From Stenotrophomonas hibiscicola ATCC 19867 (GTDB taxonomy: Bacteria > Pseudomonadota > Gammaproteobacteria > Xanthomonadales > Xanthomonadaceae): DNA of 64,000 nt. Positions 31,611-36,450 of this stretch are shown here, piece after piece. The stretch's first letter is position 1. Every line of letters begins with the position of its first letter. The translations under genes were made by a program, and so were the position numbers. The stretch is from contig NZ_KB907498.1 of NCBI RefSeq assembly GCF_000382065.1, forward strand, positions 750,714 to 814,713, read 5' to 3'. Under the pieces are notes generated by a model that ran no database searches, was not told the DNA's origin, and worked only from the letters and a program-made list of their open reading frames with translations.

Positions 31611-32216
31611 TCACCCTGCCGCACTCACCCGTATCGCCAACAACTCGCCCCCGCCCTGCAAAGCGTGCCGCTGCCGTTCACCCGCTGACAACCACGCGGT
31701 ATCGCCGGCCTGCAGCGGCGGCAGGCCACTGTCGGCACCGAACGCCGCCTGACCGGCCAACAGATGCAACGCCCAGGCCACGCCCGGTTCGCAGAAGAAG
31801 AACATCGCGCCCACCAGCGGCCGATGCAGCAGTTCCGCCTGCAGCAGATCGCGTTTCCACATCAGGTTGAAATCGTGGGTGGTGCCATCCACCAGTTCGC
31901 CGTGCAGCCTTTCCTCTCCCGCAAAGCGCACGCGCCCGTGCGGCGGCAGCACCTGGGCCACACGGCCATCCTCGAAGCGAAGACGCACGCCATTGCCCTG
32001 CAGCAGTACCAGTTCGCGCTCCACGCCGGGGAAGGCGGAGAACGCGGCGTCCTGTTCGATTTCGGCCACGGACAGGCGCAGCGCCCAGTCATCCCCCTGC
32101 GCGGGCAGGCGCAGGATCTCGCGGGTCCAGCCCAGGCCGTTGCGCCAACGTTCGCGGCGGTAGTCCAGGCTGGAGATCAACTGGCTCGGAGTGTGCAGCA
32201 GGGAGTCGATGTTCAT
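31611..32216 (-). CDS. HutD/Ves family protein
   Basis: 201 residues with the family hallmark RRERWRNGLGWTREI and the cupin-like continuation WALRLSVAEIEQDAAFSAFPGVERELVLL. HutD/Ves proteins are small bicupins of uncertain function; HutD accompanies histidine utilisation and Ves is linked to cold and salicylate response in E. coli. No hut genes are nearby. It is convergent with the reductase gene. Confidence 0.88.
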   Translation of the reverse strand: MNIDSLLHTPSQLISSLDYRRERWRNGLGWTREILRLPAQGDDWALRLSVAEIEQDAAFSAFPGVERELVLLQGNGVRLRFEDGRVAQVLPPHGRVRFAGEERLHGELVDGTTHDFNLMWKRDLLQAELLHRPLVGAMFFFCEPGVAWALHLLAGQAAFGADSGLPPLQAGDTAWLSAGERQRHALQGGGELLAIRVSAAG

Positions 32217-32250: not shown

Positions 32251-32982
32251 TCACCGCGTGGCGAGCGTGCCCTGGCCACCGCACCCGCCGGCCAGCAGCT
32301 GCGAGTGCTTCAGCCAATCCTGGTCGGGGTAGTAAGCAAACACCATCGTGCCGCCGCGCAATGCGTCGATGAGAGGCTTGGCCACCGACAGGCGCACCGC
32401 CGGGCAACCCAGGCTGCGACCCAAGCGCCCCTGCAGCTGAGCGGTGGCCGGGTTCACATACGGTGCGCCGTGGATGACGATCGCGCGATCGCGCGCGCGG
32501 TCATTGAAGCCCGGTTCCAGCCCGGCCAGGCGCAGCGAATAGCCGTTGCCGCCCATGTAGGTTTCCTGCGCGGTGAACGCGCCGAGGCTGGACATGAAAC
32601 TGCCATCGCGGTTGGAGAAGTGCTCGGTGCGGTTCTCGCCGCTGTTGCGGCCATGTGCCACCCATTCCTCGAACAGCAGGCGCTGGTGGGCCAGGTCGAA
32701 CACCCACAGGCGCGGCTCGGTGGACGGGCGCGAGTAATCGATCACGCTGAGCCGATCACCGTTGATGCCCAGCTCCGGCCGCTGCAGCGCGCAGCGCATG
32801 GCGCGCGCCGCCAGCTGCAACACGTGGCGGTCGGCCTTGGGCGCACTGCGCGACAGCAGGGCAGCCAGATCATCGGCAGAGGTGGCGAGGGCGGGCGTCT
32901 GTGCCAGCGCCGGGGCGCTGGCCGAGGTCGCCAGCAGGCCGAACGCGGCCAGCCGGCACAGGCGGGATGCAGTCATGGGCAC
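32251..32982 (-). CDS. Murein L,D-transpeptidase catalytic-domain protein (YkuD_2 type)
   Basis: 243 residues with a signal peptide (about 1-27) and the YkuD_2 catalytic core: VFDLAHQRLLFEEWVAHG, then IVIHGAPYVNP and the active-site RSLGCPAV (catalytic Cys). Predicted to act on peptidoglycan in the periplasm. It follows another L,D-transpeptidase gene on the same strand by about 11 nt. That argues for a cell-wall cross-linking or lipoprotein-attachment operon. Confidence 0.88.
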   Translation of the reverse strand: MPMTASRLCRLAAFGLLATSASAPALAQTPALATSADDLAALLSRSAPKADRHVLQLAARAMRCALQRPELGINGDRLSVIDYSRPSTEPRLWVFDLAHQRLLFEEWVAHGRNSGENRTEHFSNRDGSFMSSLGAFTAQETYMGGNGYSLRLAGLEPGFNDRARDRAIVIHGAPYVNPATAQLQGRLGRSLGCPAVRLSVAKPLIDALRGGTMVFAYYPDQDWLKHSQLLAGGCGGQGTLATR

Positions 32983-32993
32983 AACGAGGGGTC

Positions 32994-34079
32994 TCAGTTG
33001 CCCTTGAGGGTGGACCCTGGCGGCTCGGATTCCAAGACCGGCTGCATTCCGGATTCAGCCGGGCTTGGGCGGACCGCCGGCAGCGAGGTCACCAGCAGGG
33101 TCGTGCCCGGCACCAGCACCTGGTACAGCTGGCGGGCGAAATCGGCCGGCAGCGCCATCGGCAGCGAGGGCGTGGCCAGCAGGTCCGGCGTGGCCTGGGC
33201 GCGGTCCTGGCCCAGCAACGGGTAGGCCGTCCACTGGTGCAGGCGCTGGTTCACGTCCAGCGGGCTGGGGGTGTCGCTGTAACCCTGCCCCATCACGAAC
33301 AGCGTGGTCCCCTGGAAGGCCGGCAGCGCGTCCGCCTTCAACGGCGACTCGCCGATCATCACCCCATCGCGCAGCACGTACAGGCGCTGGTCGTGCAGGC
33401 TGACCAGGATGCCGACCTGCCCGGCCGGGGCTGCGCTGTCGTTCCACCACGCCTGCGCCGGCGCTCCGCCCTCTGCCTCCGGCAGGGCCTGCCCACGCGC
33501 ATTCACGGGTGCCAGTACCGACGGATAGGCCAGGGTCATCGGCGAGCTCTTGGCATCGGCCACGACCACGGTATCGCCACGCTGGGTTTCGCTGAACAGC
33601 TTCTGCGCGAAGGCCTGCGGCAGGCGCACGCAGCCGTGCGAGGCGGGATGCCCGGGCAGGCTGCCGCCATGCAGAGCGATACCGTCCCAGGTCAGCCGCT
33701 GCATGTACGGCATCGGCGCGCTGTTGTAGAGGTTGGACCTGTGGTCCTTGTCCTTCTGCAGGATGGTGAACACGCCGGTCGGCGTCTCGTGCCCGGCCTT
33801 GCCCGAGCTGATCGTGGTCAGGCCGATGGCGATACCGTTGCGGTAGACATAGGCGCGCTGCTCATCGAGGCTGACCACCAGCACGATCGGGCCGGTCGGC
33901 GAGATTTCCGGATGCCACAGGTATTCGCCCGGCTTGAGGTCGGTCGGTCCGCGTACCTCGGCGGTGGCCGCAGCGGCAGCTGCAGGCTTGGCGGCCGGCG
34001 TAGGCGCAGCGGCGTGGGCCTGCAGTGGCAGGGTCAGTGCCAAGGCGAGCATCAGGGTGGTGGGGCGGTGCACAAGCAT
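32994..34079 (-). CDS. L,D-transpeptidase (YkuD family)
   Basis: The start at 34079 leaves a proper signal peptide (about residues 1-24); the longer frame runs into the upstream RNA locus. 361 residues. The YkuD domain is in the first half: VVSLDEQRAYVYRNGIAIGL, then IALHGGSLPGHP and the catalytic SHGCVRLP. The second half repeats a YkuD-like beta fold (LVSLHDQRLYVLRDGVMIGE) without the catalytic motif. Function: peptidoglycan 3-3 cross-linking or protein attachment. The putative CsrB-like RNA lies directly upstream on the same strand. Confidence 0.88.
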   Translation of the reverse strand: MLVHRPTTLMLALALTLPLQAHAAAPTPAAKPAAAAAATAEVRGPTDLKPGEYLWHPEISPTGPIVLVVSLDEQRAYVYRNGIAIGLTTISSGKAGHETPTGVFTILQKDKDHRSNLYNSAPMPYMQRLTWDGIALHGGSLPGHPASHGCVRLPQAFAQKLFSETQRGDTVVVADAKSSPMTLAYPSVLAPVNARGQALPEAEGGAPAQAWWNDSAAPAGQVGILVSLHDQRLYVLRDGVMIGESPLKADALPAFQGTTLFVMGQGYSDTPSPLDVNQRLHQWTAYPLLGQDRAQATPDLLATPSLPMALPADFARQLYQVLVPGTTLLVTSLPAVRPSPAESGMQPVLESEPPGSTLKGN

Positions 34080-34155
34080 CCAGCGGGGTCCTTTCCATTC
34101 GGAGCGGCCACCGTACACCATCGGCCCGTGGTGGCCGCGGCAAAACCAGGCGCCG

Positions 34156-34199
34156 GAAATGAAACTGCCCGGCGACACAGCCATGTGTCGTACCGGGCA
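34156..34199 (-). terminator. Intrinsic-terminator-like hairpin ending the candidate sRNA
   Basis: Stem of 7 + 7 bp on the minus strand (tgcccgg, two-base bulge, cgacaca, loop tggc, tgtgtcg, ccgggca) followed by gtttcattt. The T tract is imperfect but the stem is very stable. It separates the RNA from the L,D-transpeptidase gene. Confidence 0.7.
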
Positions 34200-34440
34200 A
34201 TCGTTACGTCCTTGTCGGCCTGCTGCCGCCCCCTCGCATCCTGCGCTGTGGGGGTAGCGTTGCATCCTGCACGCGGCCGCGTCTGTCCTGTTTGTATCTC
34301 AGCCCCTTCCACAGGTCTGTGATGCCACCATCCTGGTGAGTGGTGCCGCGTCCTGCGGCGGTCGGTGGTCACGGGCGTCCTGTCCGTGACCGGTGAACCA
34401 GCGTCCTGCCGGTTCCGACGATTCCTGCTGTCAGCGCCTC
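34156..34440 (-). ncRNA. Candidate CsrB/RsmZ-like RNA (CsrA/RsmA-sequestering sRNA)
   Basis: Read on the minus strand there are eight CAGGA motifs (plus-strand TCCTG at 34239, 34265, 34286, 34331, 34351, 34378, 34404, 34423), spaced 19-45 nt. Six extend to CAGGATG or CAGGACG, the CsrB repeat consensus. Several lie in hairpin loops: 34396-34416 (8-bp stem, loop aggac), 34367-34391 (8-bp stem, loop acaggacgc), 34346-34360 (5-bp stem, loop aggac), 34326-34340 (5-bp stem, loop aggat). An ACAAGGACGT site follows at about 34207. The segment ends in a strong hairpin (34166-34199) and a T-rich tail. CsrB/RsmZ RNAs bind CsrA/RsmA dimers by such GGA loops. The 5' end and promoter were not located; more GGA-loop hairpins reach to about 34485. 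Confidence 0.8.
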
Positions 34441-34757
34441 GGTACGGTTCGCACCGGTACCGATCCAGGTACCGGATCCGCCGGCAACAACCTGTTCCCT
34501 ACGGTGATCCGCTGTCGATTCCGTTCGACGATGGCTTTCCCTATCCCCTTCACCTGCGCCAAGTCCTCGACGCGATGAAACGGGCCGTGTCTGCGCCGGT
34601 GCTCGACGATCGCCTCGGCCTTGGCGGCTCCGACCATCGTCAATCCCTGCTGCAGCGCCTGGGCATCGGCGCGGTTGATGTCGATCGGTTCGGCGGCATG
34701 CGCCCCAGCGATCCACACGACCAGCACCAGTGCCCTCAACACGACACTCCAAGGCAC
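34431..34757 (-). CDS. ComEA-like helix-hairpin-helix DNA-binding protein, exported
   Basis: The GTG at 34757 was chosen because AAGGAG lies 9 nt upstream and it gives a good signal peptide (ending AGAHA). 108 residues. The domain is two helix-hairpin-helix motifs (IDINRADAQALQQGLTMVG; KAEAIVEHRRRHGPFHRVEDL and VKGIGKAIVERN), the ComEA fold that binds DNA in the periplasm during uptake. The usual family end is near VERNRQRI. Here an extra basic tail (about 21 residues) runs into the repeat-rich candidate sRNA region. Confidence 0.8.
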   Translation of the reverse strand: MPWSVVLRALVLVVWIAGAHAAEPIDINRADAQALQQGLTMVGAAKAEAIVEHRRRHGPFHRVEDLAQVKGIGKAIVERNRQRITVGNRLLPADPVPGSVPVRTVPRR

Positions 34758-34956
34758 GACGTGTATCTCCTTGTGATTCTGGACGTCCCGACCGGCAATC
34801 CCGTCGGTAGGAACAGTGTCCGTCACCACATGCACACAGCCTATCGGTTTCCTGGATTTCTAAAAGCCAGCCAAATACCCGACGTGATGTAGGAAAAACC
34901 CTACCCGTGGCACAGGCGTAGAATGGCGGGATCAGCCCATGCAACCGGAGTTTCAG

Positions 34957-36450
34957 ATGGACAGCGCCAAGCTCGGCCAATTCGTCAATGACAAGTGGGA
35001 CAGTGAAATCGTCCCGCAGTTGGTCGACTACATCCGCATTCCCAACAAGTCGCCGATGTTCGACGCCAATTGGGTGCAGAACGGCTACATGGAACAGGCG
35101 GTCACGCTGATGGAGAACTGGGCCAAGGCCCAGCAGCTGCCCGGCCTGAAGGTTGAAGTGGTGCGCCTGGAAGGCCGCACCCCGCTGATCTTCCTGGAAA
35201 TTCCGGCCTCCGGCCCGGAAACCGGCGACGACACCATCCTGCTCTACGGCCATCTGGACAAGCAGCCGGAAATGACCGGCTGGGACGACGATCTCGGCCC
35301 GTGGACCCCGGTCCTGCGCGGCGACAAACTGTATGGCCGCGGCGGTGCGGATGACGGCTACGCCATCTTCGGCTCGCTGGCCGCGGTGCTGGCGCTGCAG
35401 GCCCAGGGCCTGCCGCACGCCCGCTGCGTGGTGCTGATCGAAGCCTGTGAAGAATCGGGCAGCTACGACCTGCCGGCCTACGTCGACCACCTGGCCGACC
35501 GCATCGGCAAGCCGTCGCTGGTGGTCTGCCTGGATTCGGGCTGCGCCAACTACGACCAGCTGTGGTGCACCACCTCGCTGCGCGGCCTGACCGGCGGCAA
35601 CTTCACCGTGAAGGTGCTCAACGAAGGCGTGCATTCCGGCGATGCCTCCGGCGTGGTGCCGTCCAGCTTCCGCCTGCTGCGCCAGCTGCTGTCGCGCATC
35701 GAGGACCAGGACACCGGCCGCATCCTGATCGACGGCATGAACGTGGAAATCCCGGCCGAACGCCTGGAACAGGCCAAGCGCGCGGCCGAAGTGGTGGATA
35801 CCGAGATCTTCGAGAAGTTCCCGATGGTCGACGGCCTGCGCCCCATGAACGAGGACCTGACCGAGCTGGTGCTCAATCGCACCTGGCGCCCGGCGCTGTC
35901 GGTCACCGGCGTCGGTGGCATGCCGCCGCTGGAATCGGCCGGCAACGTGCTGCGTCCGCAGACCTCGGTGAAGCTCTCGCTGCGCCTGCCGCCGACTGCC
36001 GATGGCAAGACCTGCGGCGAACTGTTGAAGGAAGCACTGCTGCGCGACCCGCCGAACGGCGCGCAGGTCACCCTGGACCTGGAAAAGGCCTCCACCGGCT
36101 GGAACGCACCGGCCATGGCGCCGTGGCTGACCCAGGCCATTGACGACGCCAGCCAGGCTTTCTTCGGCAAGCCGGCGATGTACATGGGCGAAGGCGGCTC
36201 GATCCCGTTCATGGGCATGCTGGGCGAGAAGTTCCCGGGCGCGCAGTTCATGATCACCGGCGTGCTCGGCCCGCATTCCAATGCACATGGCCCCAACGAG
36301 TTCCTGCACATCCCGATGGGCAAGAAGGTCACCGCCTGCGTGTCCACGGTGATCAGCGAGCACTATGCCGCCAGCCTGCGCGGCGAGACCAGCGGTTCGC
36401 CGGTGGCTGCCGACAGCGGCACCCGCCACGGCGACCACGGCTGCTGCTGA
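34957..36450 (+). CDS. M20 family dipeptidase/metallopeptidase
   Basis: 497 residues from the ATG preceded by GGAG at 6 nt (an in-frame ATG 18 nt earlier is less likely). Metal-site motifs of the M20/CNDP type: LLYGHLDKQPEM (His-x-Asp), RGGADDGYAIFG (bridging Asp), EACEESGSYD (catalytic and metal Glu), CLDSGC, and the dimerisation-domain GLTGGNFTVKV with GVHSGDASG. Probably a cytosolic di- or oligopeptidase; the substrate is not known. The C-terminus has a His/Cys-rich tail (GTRHGDHGCC). Confidence 0.9.
   Translation: MDSAKLGQFVNDKWDSEIVPQLVDYIRIPNKSPMFDANWVQNGYMEQAVTLMENWAKAQQLPGLKVEVVRLEGRTPLIFLEIPASGPETGDDTILLYGHLDKQPEMTGWDDDLGPWTPVLRGDKLYGRGGADDGYAIFGSLAAVLALQAQGLPHARCVVLIEACEESGSYDLPAYVDHLADRIGKPSLVVCLDSGCANYDQLWCTTSLRGLTGGNFTVKVLNEGVHSGDASGVVPSSFRLLRQLLSRIEDQDTGRILIDGMNVEIPAERLEQAKRAAEVVDTEIFEKFPMVDGLRPMNEDLTELVLNRTWRPALSVTGVGGMPPLESAGNVLRPQTSVKLSLRLPPTADGKTCGELLKEALLRDPPNGAQVTLDLEKASTGWNAPAMAPWLTQAIDDASQAFFGKPAMYMGEGGSIPFMGMLGEKFPGAQFMITGVLGPHSNAHGPNEFLHIPMGKKVTACVSTVISEHYAASLRGETSGSPVAADSGTRHGDHGCC

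Follow-up and report, generated by a model that had tools for sequence, protein, structure and literature searches.

A GGA-rich RNA directly behind comEA of Stenotrophomonas hibiscicola: an enlarged homologue of Xanthomonas RsmU and a predicted RsmA/CsrA decoy

The stretch from 34430 to 34165 on the minus strand of the window (the whole 64,000-nucleotide piece of DNA analyzed here) is quite probably an enlarged homologue of the Xanthomonas RNA RsmU which, with its twelve GGA, is predicted to form the 3'-terminal part of comEA mRNA and is a likely decoy for RsmA/CsrA (Table 1). The position of this RNA, its homology, the conservation of its sites and stems and that of the promoter region before comEA are established by the comparisons that follow. 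A sequence-only reading of the same DNA had placed an RsmA-titrating RNA of the CsrB/RsmZ kind here and had known of no described member. The anatomical part of that proposal stands: the RNA is CsrB-like in build, with GGA in its loops, and RsmA is indeed encoded, there being one csrA/rsmA gene in the genome. The claim to novelty falls, as a described relative, RsmU of Xanthomonas campestris, is known at the same place (PMC7694677), and so does membership in a CsrB-type family, since no Rfam family cut-off is reached, those of CsrB and RsmV included.

RsmU (sRX061) of Xanthomonas campestris pv. campestris 8004 comes in forms of 117 and 77 nt processed from the 3'UTR of comEA (XC1332); it starts 25 nt past the comEA stop codon, and the long form ends in a 40-nt terminator (PMC7694677). 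According to that report, RsmU binds RsmA in gel shifts and co-immunoprecipitation, and is lost upon deletion of the comEA promoter (PMC7694677). The GGA-rich RNA of the window occupies the RsmU position, lying directly 3' of comEA on the same strand; comEA itself was recognized by matches to PF12836 (64 bits) and TIGR00426 (77 bits against a cut-off of 53). The closest named relatives are S. maltophilia and near species, with ComEA 92 to 99% identical (15 loci, L059-L073). Other Xanthomonas species stand in for X. campestris 8004 in our comparisons, for example locus L077, where the stretch 3' of comEA agrees with the coordinates of RsmU and has ACAAGGACGT at position 63 of that RNA and a terminator hairpin that starts at position 78. 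When the window RNA was compared with L077 by blastn, only positions 163 to 269 after the stop codon aligned (69% over 110 nt; pairwise E of 4e-10). A covariance model, R2, was then compared with the window; it comprises 16 sequences from Xanthomonas and other genera, and the test is not circular because the genus of the window was left out of the model. R2 scores 68.8 bits at this place, the next best match in the 64-kb window being 14.9 bits, and it finds the RNA in 90 of the 91 genomes of the genus, with all 86 of good quality among them and a single miss that is 85% complete. By these sequence comparisons, the stretch is an enlarged RsmU homologue by descent.

Table 1. Features at and around the comEA locus of the window (positions are those of the window)
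Feature	Position	Strand	Basis
comEA, encoding a DNA-uptake protein with a helix-hairpin-helix (108 aa; GTG start at 34757 chosen by us)	34431..34757	-	PF12836, TIGR00426
M20-family peptidase gene, divergent, upstream of comEA	34939-36450	+	ORF list, profile match
Two YkuD-type L,D-transpeptidase genes, downstream of the RNA	32251-34148	-	profile match
HutD gene, beyond the YkuD genes	31611-32216	-	profile match
GGA-rich RNA, enlarged RsmU homologue, predicted RsmA/CsrA decoy	34165..34430	-	12 GGA in 266 nt
5' extension with hairpins 1-4, unmatched by Xanthomonas RsmU	34269..34430	-	blastn against L077, alignment A1
Hairpin 1, loop AGGAC	34396..34414	-	both-side changes in 4/7 pairs; CAGGA in 21/21
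Hairpin 2, loop ACAGGACGC	34368..34390	-	both-side changes in 5/7 pairs; CAGGA in 16/21, GGA in 21/21
Hairpin 3, loop AGGAC	34346..34358	-	both-side changes in 1/4 pairs; CAGGA in 14/21, GGA in 21/21
Hairpin 4, loop AGGAT	34326..34338	-	stem invariant in 21 relatives
CAGGA in predicted wide loop	34286..34290	-	CAGGA in 18/21, GGA in 21/21
Hairpin 5, loop AGGAT	34261..34271	-	CAGGA in 18/21, GGA in 21/21
Hairpin 6, CCCCC..GGGGG around CGC-AGGAT-GCG	34229..34254	-	CAGGA in 21/21
Terminator-type hairpin (GCCCGG..CCGGGC, T-rich tail), homologue of the RsmU terminator	34167..34198	-	covariation, R2 match
ACAAGGACGU, fits ACA.GGA.GU, the near-invariant SELEX positions	34206..34215	-	pattern match
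CAGGA sites	34427-34423, 34408-34404, 34382-34378, 34355-34351	-	pattern search
CAGGA sites, rest	34335-34331, 34290-34286, 34269-34265, 34243-34239	-	pattern search
R2 match	34145..34244	-	68.8 bits, E 9e-19
Palindrome GTAGGGTTTTTCCTAC (GTAGG-N6-CCTAC), UvrY/GacA-box geometry, candidate activator site	34889..34904	-	conservation
-10-like GATAGG, 43 nt past the palindrome	34840..34845	-	offset conservation

According to its authors, RsmU is present with more than 90% identity in every sequenced Xanthomonas and in no bacterium outside that genus (PMC7694677). Judged by a family covariance model of 34 sequences, R1, this limitation looks too narrow. At an E of 0.01, R1 gave matches in 135 of 198 family genomes and 44 of 54 genera, the weakest of which are surely in part due to chance. 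At 40 bits or more it gave them in 102 of the 198 genomes and 32 of the 54 genera, 29 of the 102 being represented in the training set and 73 lying outside it. No R1 match at E 0.01 was obtained in 63 of the 198 genomes, and none of 40 bits in 96. We determined adjacency from the 150 comEA matches listed: all 78 checkable R1 matches of at least 40 bits are on the same strand as comEA, 43 to 219 nt 3' of the comEA match, the other 24 being uncheckable. Among the 19 listed matches of 30 to 40 bits, 16 were checkable, and these split into 7 that adjoin comEA and 9 that lie elsewhere. In a survey of 151 genomes of the order, R1 matches outside the family were weak (E of 1.5e-4 or worse) and for that reason are not counted as homologues. 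Because strong R1 matches occur across genera and every checkable one is found 3' of comEA, RsmU is, on sequence grounds, a trait of much of the family, beyond Xanthomonas, with none seen outside the family at this sensitivity. The window RNA (69%) and the family distribution (32 of 54 genera) do not fit the description of more than 90% identity and Xanthomonas only, which limits the name, not the function.

A search at the DNA level gave matches in 25 of 61 genomes, all within the genus (in relative G031 the RNA is present at 98%), and missed members that were found by the covariance models. In its own genome, the RNA has one DNA match, one R1 match and one R2 match. This single copy disfavors a mobile palindromic repeat that carries GGA loops by chance; REP elements have been studied in Stenotrophomonas (PMC3686654), but the position behind comEA is fixed across genera, and we regard such an origin as extremely improbable. 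Separately, the g30 genome G070 (L237, L238 and L239) contains a dispersed long palindrome whose hairpin loops hold GGA (GGACATGGATGTCC and GCACAAGGACGTGC are examples); this repeat has CsrA-like sites and gives a weak R1 match.

The neighborhood bears on a further explanation, namely that the RNA is part of a protein gene. A YkuD frame extends upstream into it (ORF 32994-34265) and is open from an ATG at 34265, so that the GGA richness could be that of coding sequence. However, this reading frame is not kept among 40 relatives: the ATG at 34265 with more than 300 open codons is found in only 11, and in the others the frame stops after 45 to 140 codons or is without the ATG. Moreover, single-base indels occur in the Stenotrophomonas alignment A1 described below, and at Xanthomonas L077, which retains the RNA, the next ORF is HutD-like by eye, not YkuD. 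A coding explanation is thus disfavored, and we consider it very improbable. That HutD-like ORF (at least 120 aa) comes next behind comEA-RsmU on its strand with no YkuD gene between; the YkuD pair between the RNA and HutD in the window is an apparent lineage-specific insertion or loss.

In the CAGGA array of the RNA, eight CAGGA stand on the minus strand across 189 nt, and six of the eight read CAGGATG or CAGGACG; the array was reproduced by pattern search with the spacings first noted in the sequence-only reading. The excess over chance claimed there is likewise borne out for CAGGA: in 2000 dinucleotide shuffles of the first 200 nt 3' of the comEA stop codon, CAGGA averaged 0.65 and never exceeded 4, against the 8 observed, and GGA averaged 6.3 and reached at most 12, against 11. 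Within the window, the four top-ranked 195-nt stretches of the minus strand all represent the CAGGA cluster after comEA, and the densest such stretch of the plus strand holds 4 CAGGA. CAGGA clustering alone is no proof, because a triple-CAGGA pattern is found at 58 places in the genome (13 in the reversed control). The locus 3' of comEA is distinguished by position, structure and conservation. A second dense CAGGA cluster in the same genome, C2:722987-723231, has eight overlapping triple-pattern matches on one strand and is probably a Gln/Glu/Lys-rich coding stretch.

What is conserved in this array is the GGA. In alignment A1, which holds 21 of the 39 distinct Stenotrophomonas sequences, GGA is present at all eight CAGGA places in 21 of 21 rows, with CAGGA itself in 14 to 21; the rows are related to each other, and a shift of a few bases was tolerated in this count. 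In distant rows, CAGGGA, ACGGGA or ACGGAG takes the place of CAGGA, and both the CAGGA of hairpin 2 and that at 34290 are altered there with GGA retained.

The three hairpins with GGA loops named in the sequence-only reading are present, their coordinates right to within one base, and RNAalifold agrees: run on the 21 Stenotrophomonas sequences, it recovered the AGGA-loop stems unprompted, with both-side changes in 19 of 78 predicted pairs. We also scored eight helices taken from the window sequence, for which 96.5% of cells pair in the 21 relatives. Both-side changes affect 13 of their 46 pairs, compared with 5.9 in shuffled alignments (none of 500 equal) and 1 to 6 in slid controls, a count that is biased in favor of structure because the helices were derived from the window's own row. 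Nine of the 13 changed pairs belong to hairpins 1 and 2. Hairpin 4, the terminator and the inner stem of hairpin 6 vary so little in the genus that they are uninformative either way. The fold of the whole RNA is moderately more stable than that of shuffles (z of -2.2; 4 of 200 as good), and GGA is unpaired more than the RNA overall (0.72 versus 0.41). In the minimum-energy fold only 6 of the 12 GGA are wholly inside hairpin loops, and all six are among the eight CAGGA sites. A block of about 40 nt, CACCAGGATGGTGGCATCACAGACCTGTGGAAGGGGCTG (34338-34299, minus strand), is almost invariant in the 21 Stenotrophomonas sequences, which exceeds what a GGA hairpin needs; possibly it has a second function, e.g., base pairing.

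After the CAGGA array come a further site and then a terminator-like hairpin, as had been noted from the letters: ACAAGGACGT at 34215-34206 and the hairpin at 34198-34167. The hairpin has 13 pairs and a tail of GTTTCATTT, with longer T runs in some relatives; a strict terminator scan did not list it. Inside Stenotrophomonas it is nearly invariant; of the 17 pairs of the family model, 15 belong to this hairpin, and 13 of the 17 show both-side changes among 34 family sequences. The site before it resembles a CsrA SELEX ligand. In the CsrA SELEX consensus RUACARGGAUGU, ACA and GGA are invariant and GU is present in all ligands but one (PMC7652899); the core of the window RNA contains ACANGGANGU, which represents these near-invariant positions. 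In a hand-picked, non-random sample of 72 family loci, one to five per genus and mostly from listed comEA matches, the pattern ACANGGANGT was found within 300 nt 3' of comEA at 47 loci, in 27 of 39 genera, and was absent from the other 25. Every locus was oriented by tblastn before counting, and among the controls the 300 nt upstream held the pattern at 2 of 72 loci, the reverse strand of the downstream stretch and comEA itself at none of the 72. All five examined loci of genus g36 (L165-L169) have two ACANGGANGT sites, 74 to 82 nt apart, as if the core had been duplicated. A core alignment, A2, comprises 34 of 53 non-redundant core segments drawn from 130 loci with a ACANGGANGT site; in 19 of the 34 rows GGC-NGGAN-GCC stands directly before the SELEX-like site, and in 23 the terminator hairpin has a GGA near its apex, where the S. 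maltophilia relatives have none.

RsmU and the window RNA thus have in common the comEA 3'UTR position, about 107 nt at the 3' end, the GCCGACAAGGACGU core, the terminator hairpin and an RsmA gene. They differ in that the window RNA is about twice as long, the extra GGA-rich 160 nt or so lying at the 5' side with hairpins 1 to 4. Four GGA sites are predicted in the 117-nt form of RsmU and three in the 77-nt form; the window RNA has 12 in 266 nt, with CsrB-like CAGGAYG hairpins. The SELEX-like site lies 211 to 250 nt past the stop codon in the Stenotrophomonas loci examined, except for the diverged species L199 (88 nt), compared with 87 to 89 nt in Xanthomonas and 156, 170, 220 and 112 nt in the four g30 loci that possess it. 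Over comparable stretches the GGA count is 12 for the window RNA, 10 for Xanthomonas L043, 18 for L036 and L022 and 14 to 15 for L050 and L076.

Among better-known RNAs, CsrB/RsmB (RF00018) and CsrC likewise present an array of CAGGAYG hairpins as an expected CsrA decoy, the motif to which 6 of the 8 window CAGGA belong; unlike them, the window RNA is linked to an mRNA and is probably part of it. RsmX, RsmY, RsmZ and RsmV are stand-alone genes, and a palindromic regulator box lies upstream of these Pseudomonas RNAs. Here, too, GGA hairpin loops occur together with an upstream palindrome built like such a box (PMC4682653 for the box), with half-sites of GTAGG at comEA versus TGTAAG in that comparison. 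The small RNA sX13 occurs across Xanthomonadaceae but at another locus, downstream of polA (PMC3771888). A literature search, chiefly of open-access papers, found no RsmA decoy described for Stenotrophomonas among the matches listed.

The sequence-only reading had envisaged an independent RNA of 250 to 330 nt, in effect a small RNA gene of the CsrB kind, transcribed from a promoter of its own that lies within comEA or directly behind it. The array of CAGGAYG hairpins would suit such a gene, and CsrB is the best sub-threshold Rfam match (20.2 bits against a cut-off of 71; E of 0.0019 for 751 bases); at the gathering level Rfam gave nothing in the whole window, RsmV scoring 11.2 against 100 bits. 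In Xanthomonas, however, RsmU depends on the comEA promoter (PMC7694677), and in the window the promoter-like conserved region stands before comEA. A consensus promoter scan of 33900-35000 returned nothing behind comEA and nothing at the palindrome or the -10-like region; having no site at either place, it decides nothing between a 3'UTR and an independent gene. We therefore consider, by analogy with RsmU, that a 3'UTR of the comEA mRNA from which a fragment is cut is the likelier origin, and that an independent gene is improbable.

The promoter-like region before comEA is conserved across genera. Its palindrome is exact in 39 of 41 named loci (L059-L099); in the sample of 72 family loci it is found upstream of comEA in 29 (16 of 39 genera) and downstream in none, the exact palindrome being absent from the other 43. 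Of the 95 distinct loci that have the palindrome, 81 show a GATAG or GATAC exactly 43 nt after it, which would put the center of the box near -64; the comEA transcript is predicted to start at about 34830-34835. E. coli UvrY binds an 18-bp box, TGTAAGN6CTTACA (PMC4682653); GTAGGN6CCTAC has an equal spacer and half-sites that are similar but different. We propose that a regulator of the UvrY/GacA type acts at the palindrome. The best candidate for UvrY/SirA/GacA, L205:1063-1707, scores 221 bits, below the cut-off of 280, with 4 of 15 LuxR-type proteins tested whole, and the sensor domain PF09984 of E. coli-type BarA was not found in the genome. The divergent M20-peptidase gene, too, has its -35 region near the palindrome; because a TARAAT -10-like element of that gene is 13 to 15 nt away in 76 of the 95 loci, the palindrome may serve the peptidase gene instead or too. 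Palindrome and TARAAT together make 34889-34939 a possible two-way switch. At the predicted 5' end of the comEA mRNA (34840-34780, minus strand), GGA[GC]ACTG occurs in 69 of the 95 distinct palindrome loci and is perhaps a further RsmA site or a start-proximal element. A large regulon under the palindrome is disfavored, as the genome holds 3 exact and 5 relaxed places, below the 9 and 16 of the controls. The other two exact palindromes, L138 and L139 (C5:203574 and C6:102176), apparently stand before ORFs, one of which looks Rhs-like by eye.

Transcription, processing, RsmA binding and the regulator in Stenotrophomonas are predicted by analogy with known systems. In this scheme, a response regulator, in all likelihood a UvrY/GacA-type protein, would act at GTAGGN6CCTAC to activate the promoter upstream of comEA, and transcription would continue through the gene up to the hairpin at 34198-34167. 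A ribonuclease would then cut off the 3' part, as in Xanthomonas; the GGA hairpin loops and ACAAGGACGU would take up several dimers of RsmA, and mRNAs repressed by RsmA would be released. In the study of RsmU, replacement of all four predicted GGA still allowed RsmA binding, in a smaller complex, and retained the overexpression phenotype, and loss of RsmU left the traits tested unaffected (PMC7694677); a decoy role at natural level is for these reasons unproven even in Xanthomonas.

A fair rival, compatible with titration, is a cis role of the 3'UTR, in which RsmA bound to the GGA hairpins would stabilize the comEA mRNA or permit its processing, so that RsmA would control competence and titration would be a side effect. 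Indeed, in Xanthomonas without RsmA, RsmU is undetectable and the comEA mRNA is less stable, and deletion of the 3'UTR leaves comEA mRNA slightly lower (PMC7694677); strong R1 matches also stay with comEA wherever this could be checked. However, RsmU overexpressed in trans mimics part of the rsmA mutant (PMC7694677), Stenotrophomonas and some g30 loci have a longer stretch ahead of the core, and twelve GGA seem, in our opinion, above the need of a stabilizer. We regard the cis role as possible but somewhat doubtful.

Returning to the predicted RsmA/CsrA decoy, we tentatively put forward, as a possibility a little stronger than that cis role, that the Csr/Rsm decoy long missing from Xanthomonadaceae is the comEA transcript: a dual-function RNA, encoding a DNA-uptake protein and acting as an RsmA sponge, that would be fired by a UvrY/GacA-type regulator via GTAGGN6CCTAC. 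The same site would shut or open the divergent M20-peptidase gene, natural competence and global RsmA control would be switched together, and lineages would tune the strength of the sponge by gain or loss of 5'-side GGA hairpins. Given the distribution of the RNA, the published restriction of RsmU to Xanthomonas needs correcting, and the RNA provides a probable case of an mRNA 3'UTR with a CsrB-like array. The family-wide occurrence of RsmU, the conserved promoter palindrome and the candidate regulator give concrete bases to test, and, if the decoy role holds, a control circuit so far taken to be specific to Xanthomonas would extend over much of a bacterial family.
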